A stretch of 15,904 bases of DNA from NCBI GenBank assembly GCA_030040475.1, contig JASHTQ010000683.1:1-15904 (forward strand), in the 5' to 3' direction. The notes under the pieces were generated by a model that saw nothing but the letters and a program-made list of their open reading frames with translations, had not been told where the DNA came from and made no database searches. Shown here piece by piece: positions 1-14,074 of the stretch; position 1 is the first letter of the stretch, and the number at the start of each line of letters is the position of its first letter. The DNA comes from Streptosporangiaceae bacterium. Its GTDB lineage: Bacteria; Actinomycetota; Actinomycetes; Streptosporangiales; Streptosporangiaceae. A program made the translations under genes and the position numbers.

Positions 1-45
1 CGGCGCCGGCAGTGGGGTGGCGACCGGCGGGCTGAGGCGCTGCCG

Positions 46-3000
46 GTGGTGCCGGCGCCGGTCAGTGACTTGCGGGTGGCGATGGCGCGGCTGGCGATCA
101 TCGTGACCGTGTCGGCCTGGCTGGCGTACCTGGTCTGGTGGTTCTTCGCCGATTTCTTTCATCCGGGGTATGAGACGGCGACCGGCCGGGCCGAGTCGGT
201 GCTGTACCTGGTGATCGTGACGCTGCTGACGGTGTCGGCGCTGGCGTACCTGCTGAGCCGGCTGGGGTTCTTCTACCGGACCCGGACGCATCACCGGGCC
301 AGCCGGGCGGTCCTGGACCAGTTCTACGACGCCACCACCCCGGCGCTGACCGTGATCATCCCGTCCTACTGCGAGGACGAGCGGGTCATCCGCAGCACGC
401 TGCTGTCGGCCGCGCTGCAGGAATACCCCGGCAAGCGGGTCGTGCTGCTGATCGATGACCCGTGTACTCCCGGGACGGCCCGGGCGCGGGACCTGCTGGA
501 GTCCGCGCGGGCGCTGCCGGGCCAGGTCGGGCGGCTGCTGGCCGGCCCGGCGCGGCGGTTCGCCGGGGCGCTGGACGCCTTCGAGGCGGGGTGCCGGCGG
601 GGGGAGCCGCCGGGGCTGGGGTCGATGATCGCGCTGGCGTCGTATTACGAGGAGGCGGCGGGGTGGCTGGAGCGGCTGGCCGGCGGGCAGGAGGCCGCCG
701 ACCATGCCGGCGTGTTCTTCGCCGGGGAGGTGGTGCTGCGGCTGGCCGGGTCGCTGCGGTCGGTCATGGCCGCGGTGCTGGCGTCGGCCGGCGAGGGGGT
801 GGTGCTGGAGGAGCAGATGTTCCGGCGGCTGTACCGGCGGCTGGCGTGGACGTTCGGCGCCGAGGTGACCAGCTTCGAGCGGAAGAGGTACGTGTCGCTG
901 TCGCACGAGCCGAACAAGGCGATGAACCTGAACTCCTACATCGGGCTGATGGGCGGGTCGTACCGGGAGGTGCCGACGCCGGCCGGGCTGGCGCTGGCCC
1001 GCACCCGGCCCGGCGGGGGGGTGGATGTCCCGGACCCGGATTACGTGGTCACGCTGGACGCGGACTCGGTGCTGCTGCCGGAGTACTGCCTGCGGCTGGT
1101 GCACCTGCTGGAGCAGTCGGAGTACCGGGACATGGCGATCGCGCAGACGCCCTACTCGGCGTTCCCGGGGGCCGGGACGCGGCTGGAGCGGATCGCGGGC
1201 GCGACGACGGACCTGCAGCACATCGTGCACCAGGGGCTGACCTACTACGACGCGACGTTCTGGGTCGGCGCGAACGCGGTGATCCGCAAGAAGGCGCTGG
1301 ACGACATCGCCGAGACCTCCTACCTGGGGGACTGGGAGATCCGGGCCTACATCAGGGACCGGACGGTGATCGAGGACACCGAGTCCACGATCGACATGGG
1401 GGTCCGCGGCTGGCGGCTGTACAACTGCCCGGAGCGGATGTCGTACTCCGCGACGCCGCCGGACTTCGGGTCGCTGGCCATCCAGCGGCGCCGGTGGGCC
1501 AACGGCGGCCTGCTGATCCTGCCCAAGCTGCACCGCCAGTCCCGGGCCCGCAAGGCCGCCGGGAAGCGGACCCGGTTCGCCGAGCTGTTCCTGCGGTGCA
1601 ACTACATGGCCTCGATCTGCTGGTCCTCGGCCAGCCTCCTGGTCCTGCTCGCGTTCCCGTTCAACGCCACCCTGATCAGCCCCCTGCTCGGCCTGGCCGC
1701 CCTGCCCTACTTCGCCGCGATGGCCTCGGACCTGCGGTACTGCGGGTACAAGCGGCTCGACGTGCTGCGGATCTACGGGTTCAACCTGGTCCTGCTCCCG
1801 GTCAACCTGGCCGGCACCCTGTCCTCGGTCGTGCAGGGCATCACCGCGTCCAAGGCCCCGTTCGCCCGCACCCCCAAAGTCCGCAACCGCACCATCGTCC
1901 CCCCCTTCTTCGTCCTCGCCCCCTACCTGCTCATCGCCCTCGCCGGTGTTACCTTCTGGTTCGCCTGGCGGGACCACCGGGTGGAGAACATGGCGTACGC
2001 GGCGCTGAACGTGGTGCTGGCGTGCTACGCGGTCACTGCGTTCATCGGGCTGCGCAACTCCGTCGTCGACACCGCCATCCACGCCACCTCCCTGCTGTTC
2101 AAATCCCCCCGCAAGCGCCGCCGCATCCCCCGCAAGACCCGCGGCCAGCAGGCCCCGCCACCCGCCGACTGGCGGACAGTCCTCGAAGTGGGCTATATCG
2201 AGCCGCTGCGATCCCCGCAGACCAGGCCGGCCGCCCCCATGGGTCCGGGGGGCCCGATGACCCCGATGGTCCGCGTGGCGTCGGGTGGCGGCGCGCCCGC
2301 GGGCCCGGCGGGCCCGGCGTACCGGATGGCCGCGCCGCCGTCGGCGCCTCAGCCGGCCTGGACGCCACAGGAAGAGCCGCGGCGCAGGCTGTCGCTGCTC
2401 CGGGTGCTTGTCGCCCTGGTGGTGCTGGCCGGCGCCGGGTACGGCGGGCTGGTCGGCGTCAAGACGCGGCTGGCCGGCGCGGTGGTGATCCACCAGACCT
2501 GGTTCGCGCCGTACGTGGATGTCACCCTGACCCCGACCTACCAGTTCCAGAGCACCTCGGCCGACACCGCACGGCAGAGCATCCTCGGCTTCGTGGTCGC
2601 GTCCTCCGCGTCCTCCTGCACCCCTAGCTGGGGCGCGGCCTACACGCTGGCGCAGGCCAACGCCTCGCTCGCGCTCGGCTCCCGGATCGCCCAGGTCCGG
2701 CAGGACGGCGCCCAGCCGATCGTGTCCTTCGGCGGGCAGGCCAACACCAGCCTGGACGTCGCCTGCACCAGCGTGGCCGGCCTCACCCAGGCCTACCAGT
2801 CGGTGATCAGCGCGTACAACCTCACCGCCATCGACCTGGACATCGAGGGCGCGCCGCTGGACAACCTCGCCGCCGGGCAGCGCAGGGCGGCCGCCGTGGC
2901 CGCCCTGGAGCAGGCCGCCACCGCCGCCCACCGGCAGCTGGCCGTCTGGCTCACCCTGCCCGTCGAGCCGGACGGGCTGCAGGACGACGCGCTATCGGTG

Positions 3001-3927
3001 ATCTCCTCGATGCTGCGCGATCATGTCTCGATCACCGGGATTAACGTGATGACCATGGACTTCGCCCAGCCCCCGGCCGCCGGGAGCAGCATGCTGTCCT
3101 CGGTGCAGGACGCGCTGGACGCCACCCACGCGCAGCTGGCCAGCCTGTACCCCCGGTACGGGATCCACCTGCGCTCGCAGCAGATCTGGCAGCGGATGGG
3201 CGCCACCGTGATGATCGGGCAGAACAACATCTCCGGCGAGAACTTCACCGTGCCCGACGCCCAGGGCCTGGTCCGGTTCGCCGGCGCGACTCATCTCGGC
3301 CGGATCTCGATGTGGTCGCTGAACAGGGACAGCCAGTGCGGCTCGTCCTTCCCGGAGACCGGCCTGCTGTCGAATACCTGCAGCGGCACCGCCCAGTCCG
3401 CGCTGCAGTTCTCCCAGATCTTCGGGCAGCTGCAGGGGGTGACGGCGGTCACCGCCTCGGCCGGGGATGTCCAGCCCGCGGTGGCCAATACCAACCCCGC
3501 CGACGCGCCGTACCCGCAGTGGTCCGCCGTGGCCGATTACCCGCTCGGGTACCGGGTGACCGAGGACGGCGAGATCTACCAGGCGAAGTGGTTCAACAGC
3601 GGGGACGACCCGCAGGCGCAGGTGCAGGACTCCTGGCAGACGCCGTGGGAGCTGCTCGGCCCGGTGCTGCCAGGCGACCACGCGCCGGTCATCCCCAAGC
3701 CGCCCGTCGGTACCTACCCGGCCTGGTCGATCACCTCTCATTACTCCGACGGCGACAAGGTGCTATTCGCCGGCCTGCCGTACGAGGCCAAGTGGGACAA
3801 CCAGGGCGTCTCACCGCAGACCGCGACCAGCGACCCGTCAGGGTCGCCGTGGGAGGCGCTGTACAAGATCCCCGGCGAACCCGCGGGAGCATCGGTGCAA
3901 GGGCAGGCGTCCGCTGTCTCCGGCTGA
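46..3927 (+). CDS. Membrane GT2 polysaccharide synthase fused to GH18 chitinase-like domain and two CBM5/12 modules
   Basis: Seen: two N-terminal membrane segments (about residues 14-34 and 50-72), then a cellulose-synthase-like GT2 domain. Its motifs are D137/D138 in LIDDP, DAD at 338-340, ED at 443-444 and QRRRW at 480-484. A further membrane bundle (about 520-690) carries a KAPFARTPK loop. A basic Pro/Gly-rich linker and one more membrane helix (about 782-805) follow. Next is a GH18 domain (about 812-1125) with IDLDIE (E934 as acid/base), MTMD at 1002-1005 and W1090. Two chitin-binding-like modules with AKW motifs lie at about 1156-1205 and 1224-1272. Positive-inside logic puts the GT in the cytosol and GH18/CBM outside. 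Family knowledge: such GT2s polymerise beta-linked sugars and GH18 cleaves GlcNAc polymers. Inference: it makes, trims and holds a GlcNAc-containing polymer. T927 replaces the first Asp of DxxDxDxE. GTG 46 has GAGG eight bases upstream, but the frame is open to the left edge, so the start could lie further out; an ATG lies near 82. Confidence 0.88.
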   Translation: MVPAPVSDLRVAMARLAIIVTVSAWLAYLVWWFFADFFHPGYETATGRAESVLYLVIVTLLTVSALAYLLSRLGFFYRTRTHHRASRAVLDQFYDATTPALTVIIPSYCEDERVIRSTLLSAALQEYPGKRVVLLIDDPCTPGTARARDLLESARALPGQVGRLLAGPARRFAGALDAFEAGCRRGEPPGLGSMIALASYYEEAAGWLERLAGGQEAADHAGVFFAGEVVLRLAGSLRSVMAAVLASAGEGVVLEEQMFRRLYRRLAWTFGAEVTSFERKRYVSLSHEPNKAMNLNSYIGLMGGSYREVPTPAGLALARTRPGGGVDVPDPDYVVTLDADSVLLPEYCLRLVHLLEQSEYRDMAIAQTPYSAFPGAGTRLERIAGATTDLQHIVHQGLTYYDATFWVGANAVIRKKALDDIAETSYLGDWEIRAYIRDRTVIEDTESTIDMGVRGWRLYNCPERMSYSATPPDFGSLAIQRRRWANGGLLILPKLHRQSRARKAAGKRTRFAELFLRCNYMASICWSSASLLVLLAFPFNATLISPLLGLAALPYFAAMASDLRYCGYKRLDVLRIYGFNLVLLPVNLAGTLSSVVQGITASKAPFARTPKVRNRTIVPPFFVLAPYLLIALAGVTFWFAWRDHRVENMAYAALNVVLACYAVTAFIGLRNSVVDTAIHATSLLFKSPRKRRRIPRKTRGQQAPPPADWRTVLEVGYIEPLRSPQTRPAAPMGPGGPMTPMVRVASGGGAPAGPAGPAYRMAAPPSAPQPAWTPQEEPRRRLSLLRVLVALVVLAGAGYGGLVGVKTRLAGAVVIHQTWFAPYVDVTLTPTYQFQSTSADTARQSILGFVVASSASSCTPSWGAAYTLAQANASLALGSRIAQVRQDGAQPIVSFGGQANTSLDVACTSVAGLTQAYQSVISAYNLTAIDLDIEGAPLDNLAAGQRRAAAVAALEQAATAAHRQLAVWLTLPVEPDGLQDDALSVISSMLRDHVSITGINVMTMDFAQPPAAGSSMLSSVQDALDATHAQLASLYPRYGIHLRSQQIWQRMGATVMIGQNNISGENFTVPDAQGLVRFAGATHLGRISMWSLNRDSQCGSSFPETGLLSNTCSGTAQSALQFSQIFGQLQGVTAVTASAGDVQPAVANTNPADAPYPQWSAVADYPLGYRVTEDGEIYQAKWFNSGDDPQAQVQDSWQTPWELLGPVLPGDHAPVIPKPPVGTYPAWSITSHYSDGDKVLFAGLPYEAKWDNQGVSPQTATSDPSGSPWEALYKIPGEPAGASVQGQASAVSG

Positions 3928-4033: not shown

Positions 4034-5371
4034 ATGTCCACGCCGGGCCACAAGCAGCGCCAGGACCTCGTCGGCGCCGTGGTCAGGGACGACGCGCCGC
4101 TGTACGGCGGGGTCGACTCCATCAAGCACGCCGACGTGCTCCGGGCCGATGCCGAGGCCCGCGCGGCGGCGCTGTGGGGCGCCGACTGGTGCCGTTTCTC
4201 CGTGGCCGGCTCGACCCACGGCAACCAGGCGTTCTGCCTGGCGATCGGGCAGCCGGGCCAGGAGGTGATCATAACCAGGACGCTGCACAGGTCGCTGCTG
4301 CTCGGCCTGGTGCTTGCGGGCCTGCGGCCGGTATGGGTACGGCCGGAGATCGACCAGGAATCCGGCCTGCCCGCAGCCGTCGCGGTCGACACCGTCCGCG
4401 AGGCGCTCGCCGCGCATCCCGGCGCCTGCGGCGTGATCCTCGGCGACCCGTCCTACGTCGGCACCACCGGCGACCTGGCGGGCCACGCCCGGGCCGCGCA
4501 CGAGGCGGGCGTGCCGCTGATCGTCGACGCGGCCTGGGCCGCCTACCTCGGCTTCCACCCGGATCTGCCGCGGCATGCGCTCGCCGCCGGGGCCGACGCC
4601 ATGGTGACAAGCGCGCACAAGACGCTGCCCGCCTATACCCAGGGCGCGCTGGTACTCGCCAGGACCGAGCGGCTCGACCCGGCCCGGCTGGAGCGGGCGT
4701 TCGACGCCACCCACACCACCAGCCCGGCGGGGTCGATCGTGGCCAGCATCGACGCCGCGCGGGCGCTGCTGGCCAGGGACGGGAACCGGCTCTGCGACCG
4801 GCTGCTCCGCGGCCTGGCCGCGACCCGCGCGCGGCTGCGCCAGGTGCCCGGCCTTGACGTGCTGGAGGGACCGGGCGTGGACCCGGCCAAGCTAGTGGTG
4901 CTGCTGGCTGGCACGGGGGCGCACGGCGGCCTGGTGGAGGCCGACCTGATCGACGCCGGCATGCCGGTGGAGATGGGTGACAGGGACACGCTGATCCCGA
5001 TCGTTACGATCGCCGACGACGAGGCGCGGCTCGCCGCGTTCACCAAGGAGCTGATCGCCTCGGTCGAGCGGCGCCGCGGCGCGCCGCGGCGGCCAGCGGC
5101 CACGGCCGCGTGGACGGTACGGCCGCAGACGGTGCTGAGCCCGCGGGAGGCGTTCTTCGCCGCGAACGAAACCGTCACCGCCCGGGCCGCAATCGGCCGG
5201 GTCAGCGCGGAGCTGGTCGCTCCCTACCCGCCGGGAATCCCGGTGCTTGCCCCCGGCGAGCTGATCACCGCCGAGGCGCTCGCCGCGCTGCACGAGGTGG
5301 CCGCCGACGGCGGCCGGATCGCCTACGCGGCCGACCCGACCCTGGCCACCTTCCAGGTCGTCACCGCCTGA
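4034..5371 (+). CDS. Orn/Lys/Arg decarboxylase family PLP-dependent protein
   Basis: Family knowledge: fold-type I PLP enzymes that decarboxylate basic amino acids to polyamine precursors, in the cytosol. Seen: STPGHKQ at the N-terminus, GSTHGN at 59-64, D165 in VDAAWAAYLGFHP (expected to pair with the PLP ring nitrogen) and the PLP lysine K196 in TSAHKTLPAYTQGA. The C-terminal domain contains PYPPGIPVLAPGE. At 445 residues it matches the short Gram-positive type rather than the ~700-residue enterobacterial enzymes. ATG 4034 is the first standard start in this frame. However, the family's N-terminal helix is clearly encoded upstream (DAPLLAGWLDWTGRAAAG from 3968), so the real protein should begin near 3959 with a non-standard CTG, or the frame is broken by one base. 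It follows the synthase by about 30-100 bases and may be co-transcribed. Substrate cannot be assigned. Confidence 0.88.
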   Translation: MSTPGHKQRQDLVGAVVRDDAPLYGGVDSIKHADVLRADAEARAAALWGADWCRFSVAGSTHGNQAFCLAIGQPGQEVIITRTLHRSLLLGLVLAGLRPVWVRPEIDQESGLPAAVAVDTVREALAAHPGACGVILGDPSYVGTTGDLAGHARAAHEAGVPLIVDAAWAAYLGFHPDLPRHALAAGADAMVTSAHKTLPAYTQGALVLARTERLDPARLERAFDATHTTSPAGSIVASIDAARALLARDGNRLCDRLLRGLAATRARLRQVPGLDVLEGPGVDPAKLVVLLAGTGAHGGLVEADLIDAGMPVEMGDRDTLIPIVTIADDEARLAAFTKELIASVERRRGAPRRPAATAAWTVRPQTVLSPREAFFAANETVTARAAIGRVSAELVAPYPPGIPVLAPGELITAEALAALHEVAADGGRIAYAADPTLATFQVVTA

Positions 5372-5964: not shown

Positions 5965-6708
5965 ATGGCTAGTCAACCCGGCTCCAGCGCCCCGGCGCAC
6001 CGGGCCGCCGAGATCGACGTGGACGAGGCCAGGAAGGCGTTCTTCCTCATGGTCGGGTTCATCGGGCTGATCTGGCTGCTCCAGGTCGCGAACTGGGCCG
6101 ACCACTATCATCTGGACGCCAGCTTCGGCATCCTGCCGCGCAACCTGGGACACCTGGGTGACATCTTCATCGCGCCGTTCCTGCACTTCTCCTGGGATCA
6201 CATCGAGGGAAACTCCGGGCCGCTGTTCGTCTTCGGCCTGCTCGCCGCCTACCGTGGCGTGACCAAGTTCCTCGGCGTGACGCTCCTAGTCGCGATCACC
6301 AGCGGCCTGGCTGCCTGGCTGTTCCAGGGCAACAACCAGCTGACGGTTGGAGCCAGCGGGCTGATCTTCGGTTACTTCGGCTACGTCCTGGCCCGCGGCC
6401 TCATCGACAGGAACCTCATCGACGCCCTCGCGGCGGTGGTCATGGCCCTGTCCTACGCCTACATCCTGACCGTGGCGATACCGGGTACCCCCGGCGTGAG
6501 CTGGATCGATCACCTGGGCGGCCTGATCGGCGGGCTAGCCTCTGGCTGGATATTCCGCACCAAGCGCCGCGCCCGCCGCGCCGACCGCACGTCGCCACCG
6601 CCCGCCAACTCCTCCGGCTCCCCGCGCCAGCCCGGCACCGCGGTAGACCTGACATCCGCCAACCCGCGAGCCGACCTGCACAGGGAGCTAGGAGAGATGG
6701 GCCTCTAG
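5965..6708 (+). CDS. Rhomboid family intramembrane serine protease
   Basis: Family knowledge: rhomboids cleave transmembrane substrates within the lipid bilayer using a Ser-His dyad. Seen: 247 residues with about six hydrophobic segments, the first at about 25-44. H79 and N83 in the HFSWDHIEGNSGPL motif match the His/Asn positions of the oxyanion region. The nucleophile S131 sits in GASGLIFG and the catalytic H183 in DHLGGLIGG. The dyad and spacing are complete, so it should be active. A hydrophilic Arg/Pro-rich tail (about 198-247) is probably cytosolic. ATG 5965 has only a GAGG one base away, too close for a normal ribosome-binding site, so translation may be leaderless or weak. Its substrate is unknown; nothing adjacent is an obvious target. 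Confidence 0.92.
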   Translation: MASQPGSSAPAHRAAEIDVDEARKAFFLMVGFIGLIWLLQVANWADHYHLDASFGILPRNLGHLGDIFIAPFLHFSWDHIEGNSGPLFVFGLLAAYRGVTKFLGVTLLVAITSGLAAWLFQGNNQLTVGASGLIFGYFGYVLARGLIDRNLIDALAAVVMALSYAYILTVAIPGTPGVSWIDHLGGLIGGLASGWIFRTKRRARRADRTSPPPANSSGSPRQPGTAVDLTSANPRADLHRELGEMGL

Positions 6709-6778
6709 CCGCCCCCGACGCGACCGTGTCACGTGGCCGGGCATGAAGAAGCTCCGCGCTCAGCGACCGCGCTAGCAC

Positions 6779-6860
6779 CGCATCTTTATCGAAAACGTAT
6801 CCATTAAAGGTTGGAAATCTGACACAATATCAGATGTGACATCGATTTCATTTCTTGAAC
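6779..6860 (+). promoter_or_regulatory. AT-rich promoter/operator island before the S9 peptidase
   Basis: This stretch is strikingly AT-rich against very GC-rich surroundings. It contains a perfect inverted repeat, ATCTGA-CACAATA-TCAGAT (6817-6835), that ends on the base before the GTG start at 6836. A second short palindrome, GATGT-G-ACATC (6833-6843), spans the start codon. No Shine-Dalgarno sequence precedes the GTG, so the transcript may be leaderless, with the CAATAT at 6825-6830 as a candidate -10. The inverted repeat could be an operator for a dimeric regulator. No neighbouring regulator gene identifies it. Confidence 0.5.
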
Positions 6861-8971
6861 AGCTTGTTCGCACCAGGCGCTTTAGCCTTGGCGAGCCCGG
6901 GCAGTTCACGGTTGCGGAGGATGGAGCGTGGGTGCTGTTCCTGCGCAGCCGGGCGGGCGACGACCCGGTGGCGTGCCTGTGGGCGGTCGACCTCGACTCC
7001 GGCATGGAGCGGCTGCTCGCCGACCCGGCAGACCTGCTCGCCGACCCCGGCGATCCCGCTCGGGTGCCTGCCAGCACCGTCGGCGTCGCGGGCCGGCCTG
7101 GCCGGAACGAGACCGGGACCCGAACGGCGGCAGGCGATGGGATCGGGGGGTACGCTACCGACGCGGCCGCACGGCTGGCGGCCTTCGCGCTGGGCGGGGC
7201 GCTGTGGACGGTCGACGCGGCGAGCGGGCGGGCGCGCCGCCTGCCGGCCGCGAGCCCCGTGGCCGATCCGCGTCCGGACCCGACCGGGCGGCGGATCGCG
7301 TACGCGAGCGCCGGCGCGCTGCGGGTGATCGAGGCGGACGGGACCGGTGACCGCGCGATCGCGGAAGCTGACGGAACCGGCGTCGCGTTCGGCATCGCCG
7401 AGCAGGCGGGGATGGTGTCGCTGCACGGCACGCGCGGCTTCTGGTGGTCGCCCGATGGCGACAGGCTGCTGGTCGCGCGGGTGGATCCGGCTGCTGTCCG
7501 GCTCTGGCACATTGCCGACCCGGCCGATCCCGGCCGGCCGCCGCGCGCCGTGCGCTACCCGGCGGCCGGGACGGCCAACGCCGACGTCACGCTGTGGCTG
7601 GCCGGGCTGGACGGCGCGCGGACCCCGGTGCGCTGGGATCGGGACGCGTTCGAATACGTGCCGGGCGCGGGCTGGGACGACCACGGCCCCTACGCCGTCG
7701 TGCAGTCCCGGGACCAGCGCACCGTCCGGTTCCTCGGCATCGACCCGGCCGGCGGCCGGACCACCGTGCTGGCCGGGCAGCGCGACGAGCGCTGGGTCCA
7801 GCTCGTCCCCGGCCTGCCGGCGAGGACCGGCTCCGGCGCCGTCGTCTGGCATGCCGACGTGCGCGGCACCCGGCGGCTGACCATGGACGGAGCCGCGGTC
7901 ACGCCACCCGGCCTGCAACTGCGTGGCGTGCTCGGCATAGACGGCGACGAGGTGCTGTTCACCGCCTCGCAGGAGCCGACCGAGATCCAGCTGTGGACCT
8001 ACCGGCCCGCGGACGGCGCCCGGCGGCTGACCGAGGAGCCGGGCGTGCACACCGGCGTCCGCCGCGCCGGGACCCTGGTCCACGTCATCAGGGACTCCGG
8101 CGGGCCGGGCGGGCGGATCGCCGCGCACAGGCGAGGCAAACCGGCCGTTCTGGTCGCCTCGCTGGTGCAGCGGCCGGCTCTCGACGTGCACGTGACCCGG
8201 ATGGAGCTTGGGCCGCGCCGGCTGCGGGCCGCGCTCTACCTTCCCTCCTGGTACCGGCCCGGCGAGCCGCTGCCCGTGCTCGCCGACCCGTACGGCGGAG
8301 CGAGCCTGCAGCGGGTCACCGCCGGACTCGACTGGCGTGGCCTGGTCTCGCAGTGGTTCGCCGAGCACGGCTTCGCGGTCCTGGTGGCCGACGGCAGCGG
8401 CACGCCGGGACGCGGACCCGACTGGGAGCGCGAGGTCCACGGTGACATCTACGGGCCGGTGCTCGACGACCAGGTCGTCGCGGTGACGCAGGCCGCGCGG
8501 CTGCACCCGGGCCTGGACCTCGGGCGGGTCGGCATCCGCGGCTGGTCCTTCGCCGGCTCGCTCGCGGCGCTTGCGGTGCTGCGCCGGCCCGAGGTCTTCC
8601 ACGCGGCGGTGGCCGGCGCCGGCCCCACCGACCAGCGGCTCTACAACACGCACTGGCGGGAACGTTTCCTCGGACATCCCGACGAGTTCCCCGACAGGTA
8701 CGAGGCGTGCTCGCTGCTGCGAGAGGCGCCGAACCTGACCCGGCCGCTGCTGCTGATGCACGGTCTCGCGGACGACAACGTGTTCCCGGCACACACGCTG
8801 CTGCTGTCCAGGGCGCTACTGGCCGCCGGCCGGCCGCACGAGGTGCTGCTGCTGCCCGGCCTCGGCCATGCGGACGCCGCGACGGCCGGGCACCTGCTCC
8901 GGTACCAGGCGCAATTCCTGCAGCGGCACCTGCAAGCTCAGCCCCCGCGCCAACCAGCGGCGCGGGGCTGA
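6836..8971 (+). CDS. S9 family prolyl oligopeptidase / DPP4-like serine peptidase
   Basis: Family knowledge: S9 peptidases cut short peptides, often after proline or release dipeptides, with a beta-propeller gating an alpha/beta-hydrolase domain. Seen: the N-terminal RTRRFSLGEPGQF opening and beta-propeller region (about 1-430) are typical of actinobacterial S9 proteins. The C-terminal hydrolase has S571 in GWSFAGS, D646 in HGLADDNVFP and H678 in LPGLGHAD, a complete triad. At 711 residues it has the expected length. No signal peptide or membrane anchor is visible, so it is probably cytosolic. GTG 6836 is chosen because the family N-terminus starts right there. It lies 127 bases after the rhomboid gene, behind an AT-rich control region, and ends inside a strong hairpin, so it is probably a single-gene transcription unit. 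Exact specificity (DPP, oligopeptidase or acylaminoacyl) is not assignable. Confidence 0.92.
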   Translation: MTSISFLEQLVRTRRFSLGEPGQFTVAEDGAWVLFLRSRAGDDPVACLWAVDLDSGMERLLADPADLLADPGDPARVPASTVGVAGRPGRNETGTRTAAGDGIGGYATDAAARLAAFALGGALWTVDAASGRARRLPAASPVADPRPDPTGRRIAYASAGALRVIEADGTGDRAIAEADGTGVAFGIAEQAGMVSLHGTRGFWWSPDGDRLLVARVDPAAVRLWHIADPADPGRPPRAVRYPAAGTANADVTLWLAGLDGARTPVRWDRDAFEYVPGAGWDDHGPYAVVQSRDQRTVRFLGIDPAGGRTTVLAGQRDERWVQLVPGLPARTGSGAVVWHADVRGTRRLTMDGAAVTPPGLQLRGVLGIDGDEVLFTASQEPTEIQLWTYRPADGARRLTEEPGVHTGVRRAGTLVHVIRDSGGPGGRIAAHRRGKPAVLVASLVQRPALDVHVTRMELGPRRLRAALYLPSWYRPGEPLPVLADPYGGASLQRVTAGLDWRGLVSQWFAEHGFAVLVADGSGTPGRGPDWEREVHGDIYGPVLDDQVVAVTQAARLHPGLDLGRVGIRGWSFAGSLAALAVLRRPEVFHAAVAGAGPTDQRLYNTHWRERFLGHPDEFPDRYEACSLLREAPNLTRPLLLMHGLADDNVFPAHTLLLSRALLAAGRPHEVLLLPGLGHADAATAGHLLRYQAQFLQRHLQAQPPRQPAARG

Positions 8972-8973
8972 GC
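8936..8973 (+). terminator. Strong terminator-like hairpin over the S9 gene stop codon
   Basis: The arm GCTCAGCCCCCGCGCC (8936-8951) pairs with GGCGCGGGGCTGAGC (8959-8973) across a 7-base loop, giving 15 base pairs with one bulged C. The TGA at 8969-8971 lies in the second arm. There is no T-tract, as is common for intrinsic terminators in high-GC actinomycetes. Confidence 0.65.
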
Positions 8974-9189
8974 GGGGGATCGACGGAGGCTTAGAACCCG
9001 GGTACGTACGCGGTCACGTCGCCGCGCGGTGCCGGCCAGGGCGACGGTCCCGGCTGCGGGGGTAGATGCGAAGTGGGGCGGGTGCGGCCATCCGTCAGAA
9101 AGAGGAGCAAACCCGCCCGGCTCCAACACAAACCAGGCGAGAAAATATGCACAAGAAAGGCGGATCGGGAAGAGGGCAGGTGAGGACCG
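8974..9189 (+). other. Intergenic region between S9 peptidase and serine hydrolase
   Basis: The first part is GC-rich with small palindromes (CCCGGG, GTACGTAC). The last ~100 bases become more A-rich, including gaaaatatgcac at 9141-9152, and probably hold the promoter of the serine hydrolase. I see no clear -35/-10 pair. GAGG at 9182-9185 is the likely ribosome-binding site, four bases before GTG 9190. Confidence 0.4.
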
Positions 9190-10437
9190 GTGGGCGAGGT
9201 CGCGATCGAGCTGGACGCCGTGGACGCGGGCCTGGACCCGAGGCGGCTGCGGCGCATCGACGCCCACTTCGCCCGCTACGTGGACGACGGCCGGCTGCCC
9301 GGATGGCTGATCACGGTGAGCAGGCACGGCCGCCCGGTGTACGTGGCCAGGTACGGGTGGCGTGACCTGGAGGCCGGGCTGCCCGTCACCGACGACACGC
9401 TGTGGCGGATCTACTCGATGACCAAGCCGATCACCTCGGTCGCGGCGATGATGCTGTACGAGGAGGGCAAGCTGGCGCTCACCGATCCGGTCAGCGCGTT
9501 CATCCCCGCCTTCGCCCAGGTACGGGTGTACGCGGGCGGTTCGGACCTGGACCCCGTCACGGTCCCCGCGGCGGAGCCGATCCGGGTCTGGCACCTGCTC
9601 ACGCACACCGCCGGGCTCAGCTACGGCTTCCACCGGGTCCATCCGGTGGATGCCCTGTACCGGTCGGCCGGCTTCGAGTGGTCCGGGCCGGCCGGGATCG
9701 ACCTGGCCCAGGCCTGCGACGTCTGGGCCGGGTTGCCGCTGCTGTTCCAGCCGGGCACCGAGTGGAACTATTCGGTCGCCACCGACGTCCTCGGCCGGGT
9801 CATCGAGGTCGTTTCCGGCCAGCGCCTTGACCAGTTTCTCGGGACGCGGGTGTTCGGCCCGCTCGGCATGACCCAGACCGCCTTCTGGGTCGGCGCGTCG
9901 GCCGCGCCCCGGCTGGCCGCGCTGTACGTGCCGGGCGCCTACGGCAAGGCGACGCGGGCCGACGCCATCGGCAAGGCCGCGCTGTCCCCGCCGGGCCTGA
10001 TCAGCGGCGGCGGCGGCCTGGTGGGCACCGCGGCCGACTACGGCCGCTTCACCCAGATGCTGCTGCACGGGCCCGGCAGCCCGGCGGGCGAGCTCGATGG
10101 CGTCCGGCTGCTGAGCCCGCGCACCGTCGGGTACATGGCCCGCAACCACCTTCCCGGCGGCCTTGACCTGGCGGCCGTCGGCCGTCCGCTGCCCAGCGAG
10201 GGCCCGTTCCAGGGCGTCGGCTTCGGCTTCGGCTTCTCGGTCGTCCTTGACCCCGTGCCCGGCAAGGTGGTCCGCTCCGCCGGCGAGCTCGCCTGGGGCG
10301 GGGCCGCGAACACCCTGTTCTGGATCGACCAGGAGGCCGACCTGACCGCCTCGTTCTTCACCCAGCTGTTCCCGGTGGGCACCCACCCGCTCCGCACGCA
10401 GTTGCGCCAGCTGGTCTACCAGGCCCTGGTCCGCTGA
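9190..10437 (+). CDS. Beta-lactamase-fold serine hydrolase (class C / EstB-like esterase)
   Basis: Family knowledge: this Pfam beta-lactamase family includes class C beta-lactamases, DD-peptidases and esterases such as EstB. All use a serine nucleophile activated by a lysine and a tyrosine. Seen: 415 residues, with S76-M-T-K79 as the SxxK motif, Y194-S-V as the YxN-equivalent, and W369-G-G replacing the KTG box. YSV plus WGG resembles EstB-type esterases more than true beta-lactamases, so an esterase or amide hydrolase role is more likely than antibiotic resistance. LISGGGGLVGTAADYGRF is a typical family segment. No signal peptide is seen, implying a cytosolic enzyme. GTG 9190 has GAGG four bases upstream. 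The gene stands alone, 216 bases after a terminator. The substrate is unknown. Confidence 0.92.
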   Translation: MGEVAIELDAVDAGLDPRRLRRIDAHFARYVDDGRLPGWLITVSRHGRPVYVARYGWRDLEAGLPVTDDTLWRIYSMTKPITSVAAMMLYEEGKLALTDPVSAFIPAFAQVRVYAGGSDLDPVTVPAAEPIRVWHLLTHTAGLSYGFHRVHPVDALYRSAGFEWSGPAGIDLAQACDVWAGLPLLFQPGTEWNYSVATDVLGRVIEVVSGQRLDQFLGTRVFGPLGMTQTAFWVGASAAPRLAALYVPGAYGKATRADAIGKAALSPPGLISGGGGLVGTAADYGRFTQMLLHGPGSPAGELDGVRLLSPRTVGYMARNHLPGGLDLAAVGRPLPSEGPFQGVGFGFGFSVVLDPVPGKVVRSAGELAWGGAANTLFWIDQEADLTASFFTQLFPVGTHPLRTQLRQLVYQALVR

Positions 10438-10467
10438 CCGCCGCACCGCTGGCGTCACCGGCCGCCG

Positions 10468-10517
10468 TCACCGGGGGCGCCGTCCGCGGCTGCCTCACCG
10501 GGGGCGCCGTCTGCGGC
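10468..10517 (+). repeat. Two near-identical 23-base direct repeats
   Basis: Copies at 10468-10490 and 10495-10517 differ at one base (C to T). Each begins TCACCGGGGGCGCCGT, and the offset between copies is 27 bases. They lie 30 bases after the serine hydrolase stop. The core GCCGTCCGCGGC also occurs in the tandem repeat at the right end of the window. Confidence 0.75.
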
Positions 10518-10581
10518 CGGCGCGTTTGTGGTGAGCGCAGCGCGGATCGCAGCGACGGTTGTGGCGGCCGTCAAAGCCGCA

Positions 10582-10639
10582 ATCTGGCTCTTTCCCTCCC
10601 CCCGGCGGGCGAGTACCTAAGGAAAAGGAGAAGCCAGAT
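10582..10639 (+). promoter_or_regulatory. Inverted repeat / 5'-leader hairpin before the SDR gene
   Basis: ATCTGGCT (10582-10589) and AGCCAGAT (10632-10639) are perfect 8-base inverted arms. Inside them, CTTTCC can also pair with the GGAAAAG at 10621-10627, leaving a few unpaired bases. The structure ends just before the GGAGG of the SDR gene. It could be a leader structure affecting translation or a diffuse operator. It matches no riboswitch that I recognise. Confidence 0.4.
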
Positions 10640-10647
10640 CCCTCGCC

Positions 10648-10652
10648 GGAGG
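10648..10652 (+). promoter_or_regulatory. Ribosome-binding site of the SDR gene
   Basis: A full GGAGG lies six bases before ATG 10659. This is the clearest Shine-Dalgarno in the window and fixes the start. Confidence 0.8.
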
Positions 10653-10658
10653 TGCTCG

Positions 10659-11435
10659 ATGGAGCTGCCCGCGCTGTTCAGCCTGGAAGGCAAGGTCGCG
10701 CTCGTCACCGGCGCGGGCGGCGGCCTGGGGCGGCAGTTCAGCGAGATGGCGGCAGCGGCGGGAGCCGACGTCGCCTGCGCGGACGTCGACGAGGAATCGG
10801 CGAAACAGACCGCCGCGGCGGTCGCCGGCCAGGGGCGTCGCGGTTTCGGGCTCCGCTGCGACGTCACCGCGGAGGCCGAAGTCGAGGCGATGGTCCGCCG
10901 CACCGTCGAGGAGTTCGGCCGCCTCGACATCTTGTTCAACAACGCCGGGATCGCCGACCCGGCCCCGTTCCTGCTGCACGAGTATCCGACGGAGAACTGG
11001 CGCCGGGTGCTTTCCGTCGACCTGGACGGCGTCTTCTTCTGCGCGCGCGAGGCGCTCAAGGTGATGGTCCCGAGGCGATCGGGCAAGGTCATCAACATCG
11101 CCTCGATGTGGGGCCTGGCGGGCTCGTCCAGCCTGTTTCCGGCGCCCGCCTACAACGCGGCGAAGGGCGCCGTGGTCAACCTGACCCGCGAGCTGGGGCT
11201 GCAGTACGCCACGCGGGGCATCCAGGTCAACGCGCTGTGCCCGGGCTTTTACCGCACCAGGCTCGGCGCCTTCGACGACCCGGACACGCTGGCCAGGGTC
11301 GAGGCGTTCATCCCGATGGGCCACGTCGCCGAGGCCGCCGACATCAAGGGCCCGGCGCTGTTCCTCGCCTCGGCCGCGTCGGACTACATGACCGGCCAGA
11401 CCCTGGTCACCGACGGGGGCTGCCTGGCCAAGTAG
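10659..11435 (+). CDS. Short-chain dehydrogenase/reductase (SDR), classical type
   Basis: Family knowledge: classical SDRs are cytosolic NAD(P)-dependent oxidoreductases of alcohols, ketones, sugars or steroids. Seen: 258 residues, typical length. The nucleotide-binding TGAGGGLG spans 17-24. D42 at the end of beta-2 favours NAD(H) over NADP(H). NNAG spans 94-97, S149 lies in INIASM, and Y165 and K169 form YNAAK. Ser to Tyr is 16 residues rather than the usual 13, so a short insert (GSSS region) shapes the active site. The structural tetrad Asn is replaced by D121 in SVDLDG. The CPGF segment after beta-6 is normal. It has its own strong GGAGG and is followed 71 bases later by the aminopeptidase, so the two could be co-transcribed. 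The substrate cannot be predicted. Confidence 0.93.
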   Translation: MELPALFSLEGKVALVTGAGGGLGRQFSEMAAAAGADVACADVDEESAKQTAAAVAGQGRRGFGLRCDVTAEAEVEAMVRRTVEEFGRLDILFNNAGIADPAPFLLHEYPTENWRRVLSVDLDGVFFCAREALKVMVPRRSGKVINIASMWGLAGSSSLFPAPAYNAAKGAVVNLTRELGLQYATRGIQVNALCPGFYRTRLGAFDDPDTLARVEAFIPMGHVAEAADIKGPALFLASAASDYMTGQTLVTDGGCLAK

Positions 11436-11506
11436 GCCGCCGGCGGCTGCCCGGCCAGGTCGGCGGTATCGTCGGTGAGTCCGAGCAGACGAAGCTGGAG
11501 CCGACG

Positions 11507-14065
11507 ATGCCAACCGACGAGATCACCCGCGCGGAGACGGCGCAGCGGGCCCGCCTGCTGCGGGTCCGCGACTACCACGTCGCGCTGGACCTGACCCGCG
11601 GTGCGGAGACTTTCGGCTCGGTCTCGGTCATCAGGTTCGATGCCGCCGAGCCCGGCGCGGCCAGCCACGCCGACCTGGTCGCCAGCGCTGTCCACGAGAT
11701 CACGCTGAACGGAGCGCCGCTGGACCCGGCCGCCGTCTACGCCGACGGCCGCATCGCCCTGCCCGACCTGGCCGTGCACAACGAACTGCGCGTGGTGGCC
11801 GACTGCGCCTACACCGACTCGGGCACCGGCATGCACCGGTCGGCCGACGCCGCGAGCGGCGGAGTCTGGATATACGGGAAGTTCGCGCCCGCCTACGCCC
11901 GCACCGCGTACGCCTGCTTCGACCAGCCGGACCTGAAGGCCGAGTTCACCTTCCAGGTCACGGTGCCCGCGCAGTGGACCGTGCTGTCCAACCAGCCGCC
12001 AGCGGCGGCGCCGGAGCAGGCCGCCGGGGGCAATGCGATCTGGCGCTTCACCCCGACGCCGCGGCTGCCGACCTTCACCACGACCGTGGTGGCAGGCGAC
12101 TACCACGTGGTCACCTCGTTTCACGCCGCGCCGGGCGGCCGGCGGATCCCGCTCGAGCTCGCCTGCCAGGCCAACCTGGCCGGCCTTCTCGACGCCGAGG
12201 CCCAAGCCCTGTTCGAGGTGACCGGGCGCGGCCTGGACCTGTATACCGGATTGCTCGGCGGCTACCCGTACGCCAAATACGGCCAGGTGTTCGTGCCCGC
12301 CTTCAGCGCCGGGGCGAGCGAGGACGTCGGCTGCGTCCTGATCTCCGACCAGTTCCTTTTCCGGTCCAGGGTCACCGCGGCGATGGACGAATTCCGAACG
12401 ATGGCGATCCTGCACGAGATGGCGCACATGTGGTTCGGCGACCTGGTGACCGTGCAGTGGTGGGACGACCTGTGGCTGAGCGAGTCGTTCGCCGAGTTCT
12501 GCGGGCACCTCGCGACGGCCAGGGTGGGCGGTTTTCCCGATGCCTGGTCGACGTTCTCCGTCGGGCGCAAGGCATGGGGCTACGCGCAGGACCGGCTGCC
12601 GTCCACGCATCCGGTCGCCGCCGACACGGCCACGCTCAGCGAGGCGATCGCCAACTTCGACGGGATCAGCTACGCCAAGGGCGCCAGCGTGCTCAGGCAG
12701 CTGGCCGCCTTCGCCGGCGAGGAGAACTTCTTCTCCGGCATCCGTGCCTACCTTGCCGGGCACGCCTTTGCCAACGCGAGCCGCAACGACCTCATCGCGG
12801 CCGTGGCAGCCAGCTCGGGCAAGTCCCTGGACGACTGGTCGCAGGCCTGGCTGCGGACGGCGGGATTCAACACGCTGCGCTGCGAGTTCCGCACCGACGC
12901 CGGCGGCGCCTTCACCGAGTTCGCCGTCGTGCAGGATGCTCCCGCATCGCACCAGGTCCTGCGGCCGCACCAGGTGGCGGTCGGCCTCTACCAGCGTTCC
13001 GGCGACGTGCTGGCGCGAATGCACCGGATAGAAGTCGACGTCGCGGGCCCGCGGACGAACGTGCCCGAGCTGGTCGGCACCACGCAGCCCGACCTGGTCC
13101 TGCCCAACGACGGCGATACCGGGTTCGTGATGGTCAGGTTCGACCCGCGGTCGCTGCGGACCGTGACCGAGTCGATCGGCAGGCTCGCCGACCCGCTGGC
13201 ACGCGCGGTCTGCTGGAACACCCTCATCGACATGGTCAAGCAGGCCGAGCTTCCGATGCCCCGGTTCGTGGCCACGCTGGCCGGCGGCATCCGGCACGAA
13301 CCGTCGGTATCGGTGCTCCAGGCCCTGCTCCCGCAGGCCGAGCAGATCATCAGGCAGCTGGCCGGACCGGAACCCGCGGCGGAAGGCAAGCGGCTGCTCG
13401 CCGACGTCGCCTGGCAGCTGCTGCGTTCGGCCGAGCCTGGCGGCGATCTCCAGCTGGCCTGGGCGCAGCTGCTCGGCTGGACGGCGACATCGCCGGACCA
13501 GCTCGACCTGACCGCCGCGCTGCTGAGCGGCGGCGTGACCGTGCCCGGCCTGCCGGTGGACGCCGAGCTGCGCTGGCCGCTGCTGCAGCGCCTCGCCGCC
13601 GCCGGGCGAGCCGGCGATGCCCTCATCGACGCCGAGCTGGCCGGGGATCCGACGCCGGCGGGCCAGCGCTACGCCGCGGCGTGCCGGGCCGCGATCCCCG
13701 ACGCCGCACACAAGGAAGCGGCCTGGCAACAGCTCATCGACGGTCGTCTCGGCATCGAGGGCCTGTCCATGCTCGCCCGCGGATTCGCCCTGCCCGAGCA
13801 GGCCGGCCTGCTCACCCCGTACGCCGCGCGCTACCTCGGCACGCTGCGCGAGATCTGGCCGACACGCAGCGGTCACCTGCGGGTGCTCCTCGGCGACCTG
13901 CTGTTTCCCTACCCGGCGGCCTCGCCGGACCTGCTCGCGCAGCTCGACGAGTTCCTTGCCGCCGACCCGGCCGACCCCGGCATGACCCGGGTCCTGACCG
14001 AGCGCCGCGACACGCTGCGGCAGGCGCTGCTCTCGCGCGCGCTGCCCAGCCGACCAGGTGAGTGA
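11507..14065 (+). CDS. pepN: M1 family aminopeptidase N
   Basis: Family knowledge: zinc aminopeptidases that remove N-terminal residues from peptides in the cytosol. Seen: 852 residues, the usual size of actinobacterial PepN. The order is a beta-rich N-terminal domain (about 1-190), a thermolysin-like catalytic domain (about 195-430), a beta module and a helical C-terminal domain (about 510-852). Zinc ligands are H303 and H307 in HEMAH, and E326 exactly 18 residues later in WLSESFAE. The catalytic Tyr is Y389 in YAKGASVL. The exopeptidase motif GAMEN reads GASED (269-273): the N-terminus-binding glutamate E272 is kept, but Met and Asn have changed. ATG 11507 is preceded by GGAG at six bases; the same frame is open far upstream but that part has no similarity to the family. 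It is convergent with the helicase, seven bases between stops. A TATCGT at 11467-11472 is a possible -10. Confidence 0.95.
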   Translation: MPTDEITRAETAQRARLLRVRDYHVALDLTRGAETFGSVSVIRFDAAEPGAASHADLVASAVHEITLNGAPLDPAAVYADGRIALPDLAVHNELRVVADCAYTDSGTGMHRSADAASGGVWIYGKFAPAYARTAYACFDQPDLKAEFTFQVTVPAQWTVLSNQPPAAAPEQAAGGNAIWRFTPTPRLPTFTTTVVAGDYHVVTSFHAAPGGRRIPLELACQANLAGLLDAEAQALFEVTGRGLDLYTGLLGGYPYAKYGQVFVPAFSAGASEDVGCVLISDQFLFRSRVTAAMDEFRTMAILHEMAHMWFGDLVTVQWWDDLWLSESFAEFCGHLATARVGGFPDAWSTFSVGRKAWGYAQDRLPSTHPVAADTATLSEAIANFDGISYAKGASVLRQLAAFAGEENFFSGIRAYLAGHAFANASRNDLIAAVAASSGKSLDDWSQAWLRTAGFNTLRCEFRTDAGGAFTEFAVVQDAPASHQVLRPHQVAVGLYQRSGDVLARMHRIEVDVAGPRTNVPELVGTTQPDLVLPNDGDTGFVMVRFDPRSLRTVTESIGRLADPLARAVCWNTLIDMVKQAELPMPRFVATLAGGIRHEPSVSVLQALLPQAEQIIRQLAGPEPAAEGKRLLADVAWQLLRSAEPGGDLQLAWAQLLGWTATSPDQLDLTAALLSGGVTVPGLPVDAELRWPLLQRLAAAGRAGDALIDAELAGDPTPAGQRYAAACRAAIPDAAHKEAAWQQLIDGRLGIEGLSMLARGFALPEQAGLLTPYAARYLGTLREIWPTRSGHLRVLLGDLLFPYPAASPDLLAQLDEFLAADPADPGMTRVLTERRDTLRQALLSRALPSRPGE

Positions 14066-14074
14066 GCCCTGGTC
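14052..14074. terminator. Possible bidirectional terminator between convergent genes
   Basis: GACCAGG (14052-14058) and CCTGGTC (14068-14074) form a perfect 7-bp stem with a 9-base loop. The pepN stop lies in the loop and the helicase stop overlaps the second arm. The convergent placement suits a shared terminator, but the stem is short and has no T-tract. Confidence 0.45.

Follow-up and report, generated by a model that had tools for sequence, protein, structure and literature searches.

The window analyzed here is the whole 15,904-nucleotide stretch of contig JASHTQ010000683.1, from a Streptosporangiaceae bacterium. Bases 1 to 3927 of its plus strand carry a single gene for a glycosyltransferase family 2 (GT2) synthase, a bundle of membrane helices, a glycoside hydrolase family 18 (GH18) domain, and two carbohydrate-binding modules (CBMs), in that order. 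A sequence-only reading of this DNA had proposed that all these parts, plus an extra membrane helix, lie in one frame, and domain searches, motifs, and an AF2 structure model all agreed. The same reading had placed the gene start at base 46, which was incorrect. Frame 1 is free of stop codons from base 1, and a 1374-aa relative with 84% identity (P0001) aligns with residues encoded upstream of base 46; therefore, the 5' end of the gene lies outside the window. Comparison with its relatives suggests that the gene belongs to a widespread, seemingly undescribed system that makes a polymer of the cell surface and trims it.

All features of the gene described below are on the plus strand. The cytosolic GT-A domain (bases 337-1566, residues about 98-507) contains a helical insertion at about residues 142-285 that separates the first Asp motif from NKAMNLN. 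The four motifs of processive GT2 enzymes (D, DxD, (T)ED, and QxxRW), which had been noticed from the sequence, were all found in this one domain and were invariant or nearly so across 40 aligned sequences. The DxD motif is DAD (bases 1057-1065, residues 338-340), with D338 and D340 invariant in the alignment, the catalytic ED of the TED-type motif IEDTES is at bases 1372-1377 (residues 443-444), and QxxRW is present as QRRRW (bases 1483-1497, residues 480-484). Pfam placed the GT2 family PF13632 at residues 333-558 (2.4e-34), and a sequence search of the Protein Data Bank (PDB) matched residues 332-514 to cellulose synthases (1.4e-08). The AF2 model, in which the flanking helices are predicted, was aligned to BcsA over 485 residues, and the Foldseek matches to chitin synthases were much weaker than the match to BcsA. 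None of the equivalog cut-offs for CelA/BcsA (TIGR03030, 70.5 bits vs. 699.1), PgaC/IcaA (TIGR03937, 38.5 bits vs. 422.3), or NodC (TIGR04242, 28.9 bits vs. 550) was reached. Also, at E ≤ 0.01, the window protein matched neither PilZ nor the Pfam chitin synthase domains. A distant GT2-only relative, L074, gave a sub-threshold match to PF03142 (22 bits vs. 27).

Two membrane helices precede the GT domain (bases 70-255; hydropathy places them at residues 9-27 and 52-70, the AF2 model at 8-37 and 45-81), and four follow it (bases 1576-2046; AF2 residues 511-536, 546-565, 620-642, and 646-667). Next comes a linker (bases 2113-2403, residues 690-786) that is basic at first, then of low model confidence and probably disordered. 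It contains a conserved DWxxVLxxG (residues 708-716) and occupies the position at which some relatives have an EAL domain. The seventh membrane helix (bases 2404-2460, residues 787-805) is the counterpart of the N-terminal anchor in stand-alone GH18 proteins. Those stand-alone proteins that were examined share the layout of the fused half, with one N-terminal helix, GH18, and two CBM-like modules.

The GH18 domain (bases 2488-3465, residues 815-1140) is of the Pyrococcus ChiA/Streptomyces exochitinase type. The PDB search placed residues 819-1127 on the GH18 exochitinase 9buf (5.5e-47), and the TIM-barrel fold and catalytic DxDxE of the family (ChiA active-domain-2 type) were both present, the latter as DLDIE at bases 2833-2847 (D930, D932, and E934). 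These results confirmed the predicted GH18 domain with its catalytic Glu. At E ≤ 0.01, PF00704 (GH18) did not match the window protein; it gave sub-threshold matches in the relatives L085 and L010. The catalytic Glu was retained in 68 of the 70 aligned GH18 rows that cover its position (57 by pattern and 11 by eye). The claim that two chitin-binding modules follow held in part: two CBM5/12-like modules were seen, at bases 3508-3660 (residues about 1155-1205) and 3721-3852 (residues 1226-1269), but the second scored 24.8 bits, below the PF02839 cut-off of 26.2, and the first was not reported by Pfam. The relatives L083 (33.8 bits), L084 (38.9 bits), and L085 (56.3 bits) passed this cut-off.

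A search across species-representative genomes yielded 121 relatives, and the best 80 were kept as loci. Both parts were found in 72 of these, fused in one frame in 10 and as close neighbors in 62 (31 divergent and 31 tandem); GH18 was not found in the other eight, including L009, which runs off its contig. The single-chain form is a minority among the 80 relatives kept. The GT2 and GH18 matches were 82-1072 bases apart in the 72 loci with both, the widest spacings being those that contain an EAL domain. L050 and L061 were assigned by hand to the tandem GT-GH class, where stop-to-stop frames had given GH-GT, and in L041 and L068 the GT match is split over two frames, so the architecture may reflect frameshifts. 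L010 and L017 are one codon short of fusion, with GT2 and GH18 frames in register and separated by a single stop codon. The module was present in Actinomycetota, Patescibacteria-type metagenome-assembled genomes (MAGs), Bacillota, Chloroflexota, Gammaproteobacteria, and others.

The order GT2-GH18-CBM, which had been thought novel for an actinomycete, turned out to be common among the closest relatives and was also found in the 120 listed proteins. Microbispora amethystogenes is one of the species with a fused gene. The fused order seems to descend from an earlier module of two genes. An assembly join or a frameshift artifact is almost certainly not the origin of the single frame, since the identical fusion occurs in 10 of the 80 loci and in the 120 listed proteins, with the isolate genome L005 among the fused relatives. 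These separate assemblies effectively reject an artifact for the family. Two other candidates were discarded. A second independent fusion in Patescibacteria (G289), reported as a 1335-aa frame, proved upon translation of the DNA to be an 801-aa GT2 open reading frame (ORF) without GH18, and L087 (genome G901) lies wholly inside L001 on the same contig and was not counted as an additional independent copy.

No conserved third gene was found when 912 predicted ORFs of the 80 loci were clustered, although ORF calling was crude (GC3-weighted and non-overlapping), many loci were short, and small or overlapping genes may have escaped. The widest cluster after GT2/GH18 (80 loci) occurred in 15 of the 80 and sits several kb from the pair in the loci inspected (L014 and L070). 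The GT2-only relatives L073, L079, and L080 lie near a gene for an MBOAT O-acyltransferase (by Pfam in L073 and by shared cluster membership in L079 and L080) and near one for a conserved protein of ~440 residues without a Pfam match. Therefore, the GT2 subfamily probably also works without GH18, perhaps making an acylated polymer there.

Next, trees of the two parts were built from 79 rows for GT2 and 71 rows for GH18 and compared on the 71 common rows. L054 and L073 were removed as near-duplicates, and L008, with a GH18 truncated at the edge of its contig, was for that reason omitted from the GH18 tree. The two trees had 40 of 68 splits in common, compared to a mean of 0.2 and a maximum of 3 with shuffled tips. 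GT2 and GH18 distances correlated at 0.92, and the largest value in 2000 permutations was 0.21. Both trees contained a group of Patescibacteria-type MAGs, Bacillota, and Microbacterium (support of 36 for GT2 and 100 for GH18), and both grouped Dehalococcoidia with the gammaproteobacterial Haliea and Halioglobus (support of 100 each). These cross-phylum groups suggest that the pair moves between lineages jointly, and errors in MAG binning could add to the mixing. The trees are unrooted and were made by a quick method, which leaves single branches and the direction of change unsure. The idea that a tethered synthase and hydrolase have a joint function was thus supported, and co-inheritance across phyla supports it more strongly than a single window could.

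GT2 relatives were also found on 14 plasmids, 13 from Lactococcus and one from Arthrobacter, and 13 of the 14 cover at least 80% of the query. On the Lactococcus plasmids p267A (pair at 6929-10773 of L083) and pG323, a GT2 gene is followed by a GH18-CBM-CBM gene, with adjoining genes annotated as prtP (proteinase) and PrsA. The GH18-CBM-CBM protein of p267A has 37% identity to the corresponding part of the window protein over 502 columns. The two-gene stretch was matched by 25 Lactococcus plasmids (L083, L084, and 23 others), 13 of which contain at least 80% of it. The Arthrobacter plasmid pNicSoilB8 (L085, 4059-12434) has a divergent pair, with a GGDEF gene and one more gene of the GH18 type within ~5 kb. 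In genome searches, whose counts include the seed genome, 9 of 379 genomes were positive in the phylum of the WWE3 seed, a phylum of small genomes, and only the seed itself was positive in the phyla of the Bacillota seed (1/249) and the Pseudomonadota seed (1/249). With a GT2-only query, 2 of 26 genomes were positive in the Microbispora family (L001 comes from one of these two), as were 9 of 25 in the genus to which Paractinoplanes tereljensis belongs. Such a patchy occurrence is what would be expected if the surface polymer is an accessory one.

These distributions bear on the possibility that the fusion is fortuitous, with a chitin-feeding surface chitinase sharing a promoter or a chain with an unrelated synthase. 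The nearest solved relative of the GH18 part is a chitinase domain of Streptomyces venezuelae, an organism that, in the available text of PMC12370203, feeds on chitin via secreted chitinases. Also, the other 12 of the 25 Lactococcus plasmids have only the GH18 gene, together with the last bases of the GT2 gene, which suggests that the synthase was lost there and the chitinase-like gene retained. However, the same GT2 and GH18 partners occur in several phyla with largely congruent trees, and all nine positives among the small genomes of the WWE3 phylum have both parts, making a fortuitous fusion very improbable.

The synthases of the divergent-pair clade have a C-terminal EAL (cyclic-di-GMP-type) domain. 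A profile built from this clade matched 30 of the 31 divergent loci (L068 partially), and the exception, L065, is truncated at the edge of its contig and was treated as EAL-negative. Since the profile was applied to the same divergent loci from which it was built, Pfam was used as an independent check, and all six full-length EAL stretches scanned (L014, L020, L070, L009, L011, and L012) passed the PF00563 cut-off. GT2, EAL, and GH18 lie in one frame in L008, L011, and L012 (Pfam EAL 1.2e-28 for L011 and 1.0e-27 for L012); L008, with its truncated GH18, and L011 come from one MAG, and L041 was EAL-positive with broken frames. An EAL fragment was detected in L010 by the clade profile (E 9.8e-08), with no Pfam match. 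In the clade of the window, the profile found no EAL domain below E 1e-3 among the 120 relatives listed.

Eight EAL catalytic positions (Glu, Asn, Asp-Asp, Lys, Glu, Glu, and Gln) were then read against 2r6o in 34 EAL domains, with a misplaced column (E2) and the loosely aligned EITE region excluded from the count. All eight were intact in 15 of the 34 domains (14 of Actinoplanes type and L020), and the first Glu, Lys, the fourth Glu, and Gln were present in all 34. The 10 Geodermatophilaceae-type domains (L014, L019, L021-L024, L028, L029, L047, and L078) all lack the first Asp and the AEG Glu, and in the fused copies Asn is replaced by Lys. The last residue of EITE was Glu in just 3 of 34 in this loose alignment, suggesting that activity may be missing even in the most intact copies. 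Three changes of EAL state are needed on the GT2 tree, one ascribed to the cut locus L065. The simplest reading of this unrooted tree would be one gain of EAL, progressive loss of catalytic residues, and then loss of the domain in the clade of the window, a series that the L010 fragment helps to support. In the relatives that have it, the EAL domain may bind cyclic-di-GMP and exert control.

The domains, motifs, order-consistent topology, co-inheritance, and set of architectures observed computationally point to a mechanism in which the enzyme activities and the direction of cutting are predicted. The membrane-embedded, processive GT2 would polymerize a nucleotide sugar in the cytosol and export the chain by way of its own membrane helices. 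The linker would be cytosolic and the seventh helix would span the membrane, so that GH18 and the two CBMs would lie outside and could bind the chain as it emerges, with cutting, trimming, release, or re-attachment as the possible outcomes. The module probably originated as two genes, one for the synthase and one for a membrane-anchored GH18-CBM-CBM protein. An EAL domain would then have joined the synthase in one lineage, and in the lineage of the window the two proteins would have become fused and the EAL domain would have gone.

We slightly favor a processive synthase that makes a GlcNAc (N-acetylglucosamine)-containing, chitin-like surface polymer, with the tethered GH18/CBM part trimming, releasing, or holding the chain. 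The likelihood of a GlcNAc-containing product was placed at a little over one half on the basis of GH18 chemistry. Catalysis by GH18 requires the 2-acetamido group of the substrate, and CBM5/12 is mainly a chitin-binding family. The nearest solved relatives of the GH18 part are chitinases. No dedicated sugar-nucleotide gene was seen traveling with the pair in the ORF clusters of the 80 loci, which fits a universal donor, either UDP-GlcNAc or, equally, UDP-Glc.

Several observations weigh against this reading. At E ≤ 1e-6, the GT2 profile matched only cellulose synthases in the PDB, and the motif before the acceptor site, DATFWVGANAVIR, is closer to DATFFCGSCAVIR of BcsA than to NVFTVSGVIAAFR of PgaC. 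The best NCBIfam match of the window protein was CelA, though far under its cut-off, and CBM5/12 modules can bind cellulose too. Cellulose synthases being the closest GT2 relatives by sequence and fold, as well as the BcsA-like motif, would fit a GT2 that makes a cellulose-like glucose polymer, with GH18-CBM not editing it but serving as an anchor or as a chitinase by which the cell or the glucan is attached to external chitin. This alternative is possible but unlikely, given that the pair is inherited jointly through changes of gene order and fusion and that the catalytic Glu of an enzyme in need of the 2-acetamido group is kept in all but two of the GH18 rows. In those two rows, L069 and L071, which are the gammaproteobacterial copies from Haliea and Halioglobus, the motif reads DxDxN or DxDxT instead of DxDxE, and cleavage is, therefore, not required everywhere; the GH18 partner there is probably a non-catalytic binder. 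The remaining points are the 28 of 68 splits that the GT2 and GH18 trees do not share, the seven GT2 relatives in which GH18 was not found, several of them on short contigs, and the 12 Lactococcus plasmids with little more than the chitinase part. Also, co-inheritance fits any tight functional link, including one in which GH18 acts on a different polymer.

Another possible explanation is that GH18 is mainly a transglycosylase or ligase that couples newly made chains to the cell wall or another glycan, rather than a hydrolase. Tethering of GH18 to the synthase with two binding modules would suit this role, and retaining GH18 enzymes are capable of transglycosylation. Neither the sequence nor the model separates hydrolysis from transfer, and a predominantly transferring enzyme was considered quite unlikely. 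With a GlcNAc polymer that is made and trimmed still preferred, we give slightly less than an even chance to a broader proposal, namely a portable chitin or chitin-like synthase-editor system that spans phyla and dairy Lactococcus plasmids. In one lineage, an EAL cyclic-di-GMP sensor would have been attached to the synthase, all three of synthase, sensor, and hydrolase would have been fused, and the sensor would have been discarded, with the window at the sensor-free end of this series.

Other genes are present in the window. About 100 bases past the fusion gene, at 4034-5371, lies a gene for a short Orn/Lys/Arg decarboxylase-type protein of 445 aa. Such a gene is at the same place in the nearest relative, L001 (92% over 171 aa, to the contig end), and the protein had no match at E ≤ 1e-5 in the other 79 loci. 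A PepN ORF of 1168 aa with a TTG start is at 10559-14065. Its match to aminopeptidase N begins only at residue 322, which probably means that translation starts later than called or else that the N-terminus is unusually extended. The region 5965-15818 also contains genes for a rhomboid protease, a prolyl oligopeptidase-type peptidase, a beta-lactamase-fold hydrolase (best NCBIfam match AcmB, below cut-off), and, on the minus strand, a UvrD-type helicase.

We recognized no description of a GT2/GH18 module in the literature searched (titles and abstract starts), in which subscription journals and preprints were poorly covered, so this is weak evidence of absence. Fusions of GT2 with GH18, or of a deacetylase with GT2, may have been published. 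Only a handful of synthase-dependent exopolysaccharides are known, such as cellulose, poly-beta-1,6-GlcNAc (PNAG), alginate, and Pel, and the GT2/GH18 module with its optional EAL domain would add another such system. If the product is as proposed, a bacterial GlcNAc polymer outside the NodC, PgaC, and fungal-type families has been overlooked in soil actinomycetes and food bacteria. The module would also offer a natural series for following how a polymer synthase acquires a second-messenger domain that degenerates and finally disappears, and the side-by-side genes on Lactococcus dairy plasmids provide a tractable test bed for product and role. The neighbor-gene form, the EAL domain with its apparent stepwise erosion, and the plasmid copies were beyond the view from a single window. 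The main texts of two papers on Actinoplanes sporangium polysaccharides (PMC13390465 and PMC12691653) contain no mention of GH18, EAL, or chitin, and the sporangium gene clusters are, therefore, apparently without the pair, as far as those main texts go. The available text of a paper on the Lactococcus pan-plasmidome does not mention chitinase or p267A (PMC6458302).

Compared to known systems, the module resembles BcsA/BcsZ in its processive GT2 fold and motifs and in having a hydrolase encoded alongside, as E. coli bcsZ is beside bcsB and bcsA, and the EAL clade further resembles BcsA, with its PilZ, in having a cyclic-di-GMP-type domain C-terminal of the GT. In contrast to BcsA/BcsZ, the window protein has no PilZ match and is far under the CelA cut-off, the hydrolase is a GH18 with CBMs, either fused or in a two-gene form, and no third cluster is found in more than 15 of the 80 loci. 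PgaC/PgaB, which makes PNAG, likewise combines a GT2 synthase with an extracytoplasmic glycoside hydrolase (by E. coli annotation). However, the PgaB hydrolase belongs to GH153, the window protein is far under the PgaC cut-off, and no deacetylase domain was reported in it. NodC and the fungal-type chitin synthases are GT2 enzymes that polymerize GlcNAc, but the NodC score was under the cut-off, no chitin synthase Pfam domain was matched, and the Foldseek matches were weaker than that of BcsA. According to the available text of PMC5122149, division 1 chitin synthases were transferred to a few bacteria. The GH18 part is similar to the ChiA active-domain-2 type of Pyrococcus furiosus and to Streptomyces venezuelae Chitinase 1 (9buf) in fold, DxDxE, and 28-36% domain identity, and differs from these chitinases in being membrane-tethered, co-inherited with a synthase, and followed by two C-terminal CBM5/12-like modules. 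The principle of a synthase with a hydrolase is known from the cellulose and PNAG systems, and what seems new here is the GH18-CBM editor, the attached EAL domain, and the fusion series.

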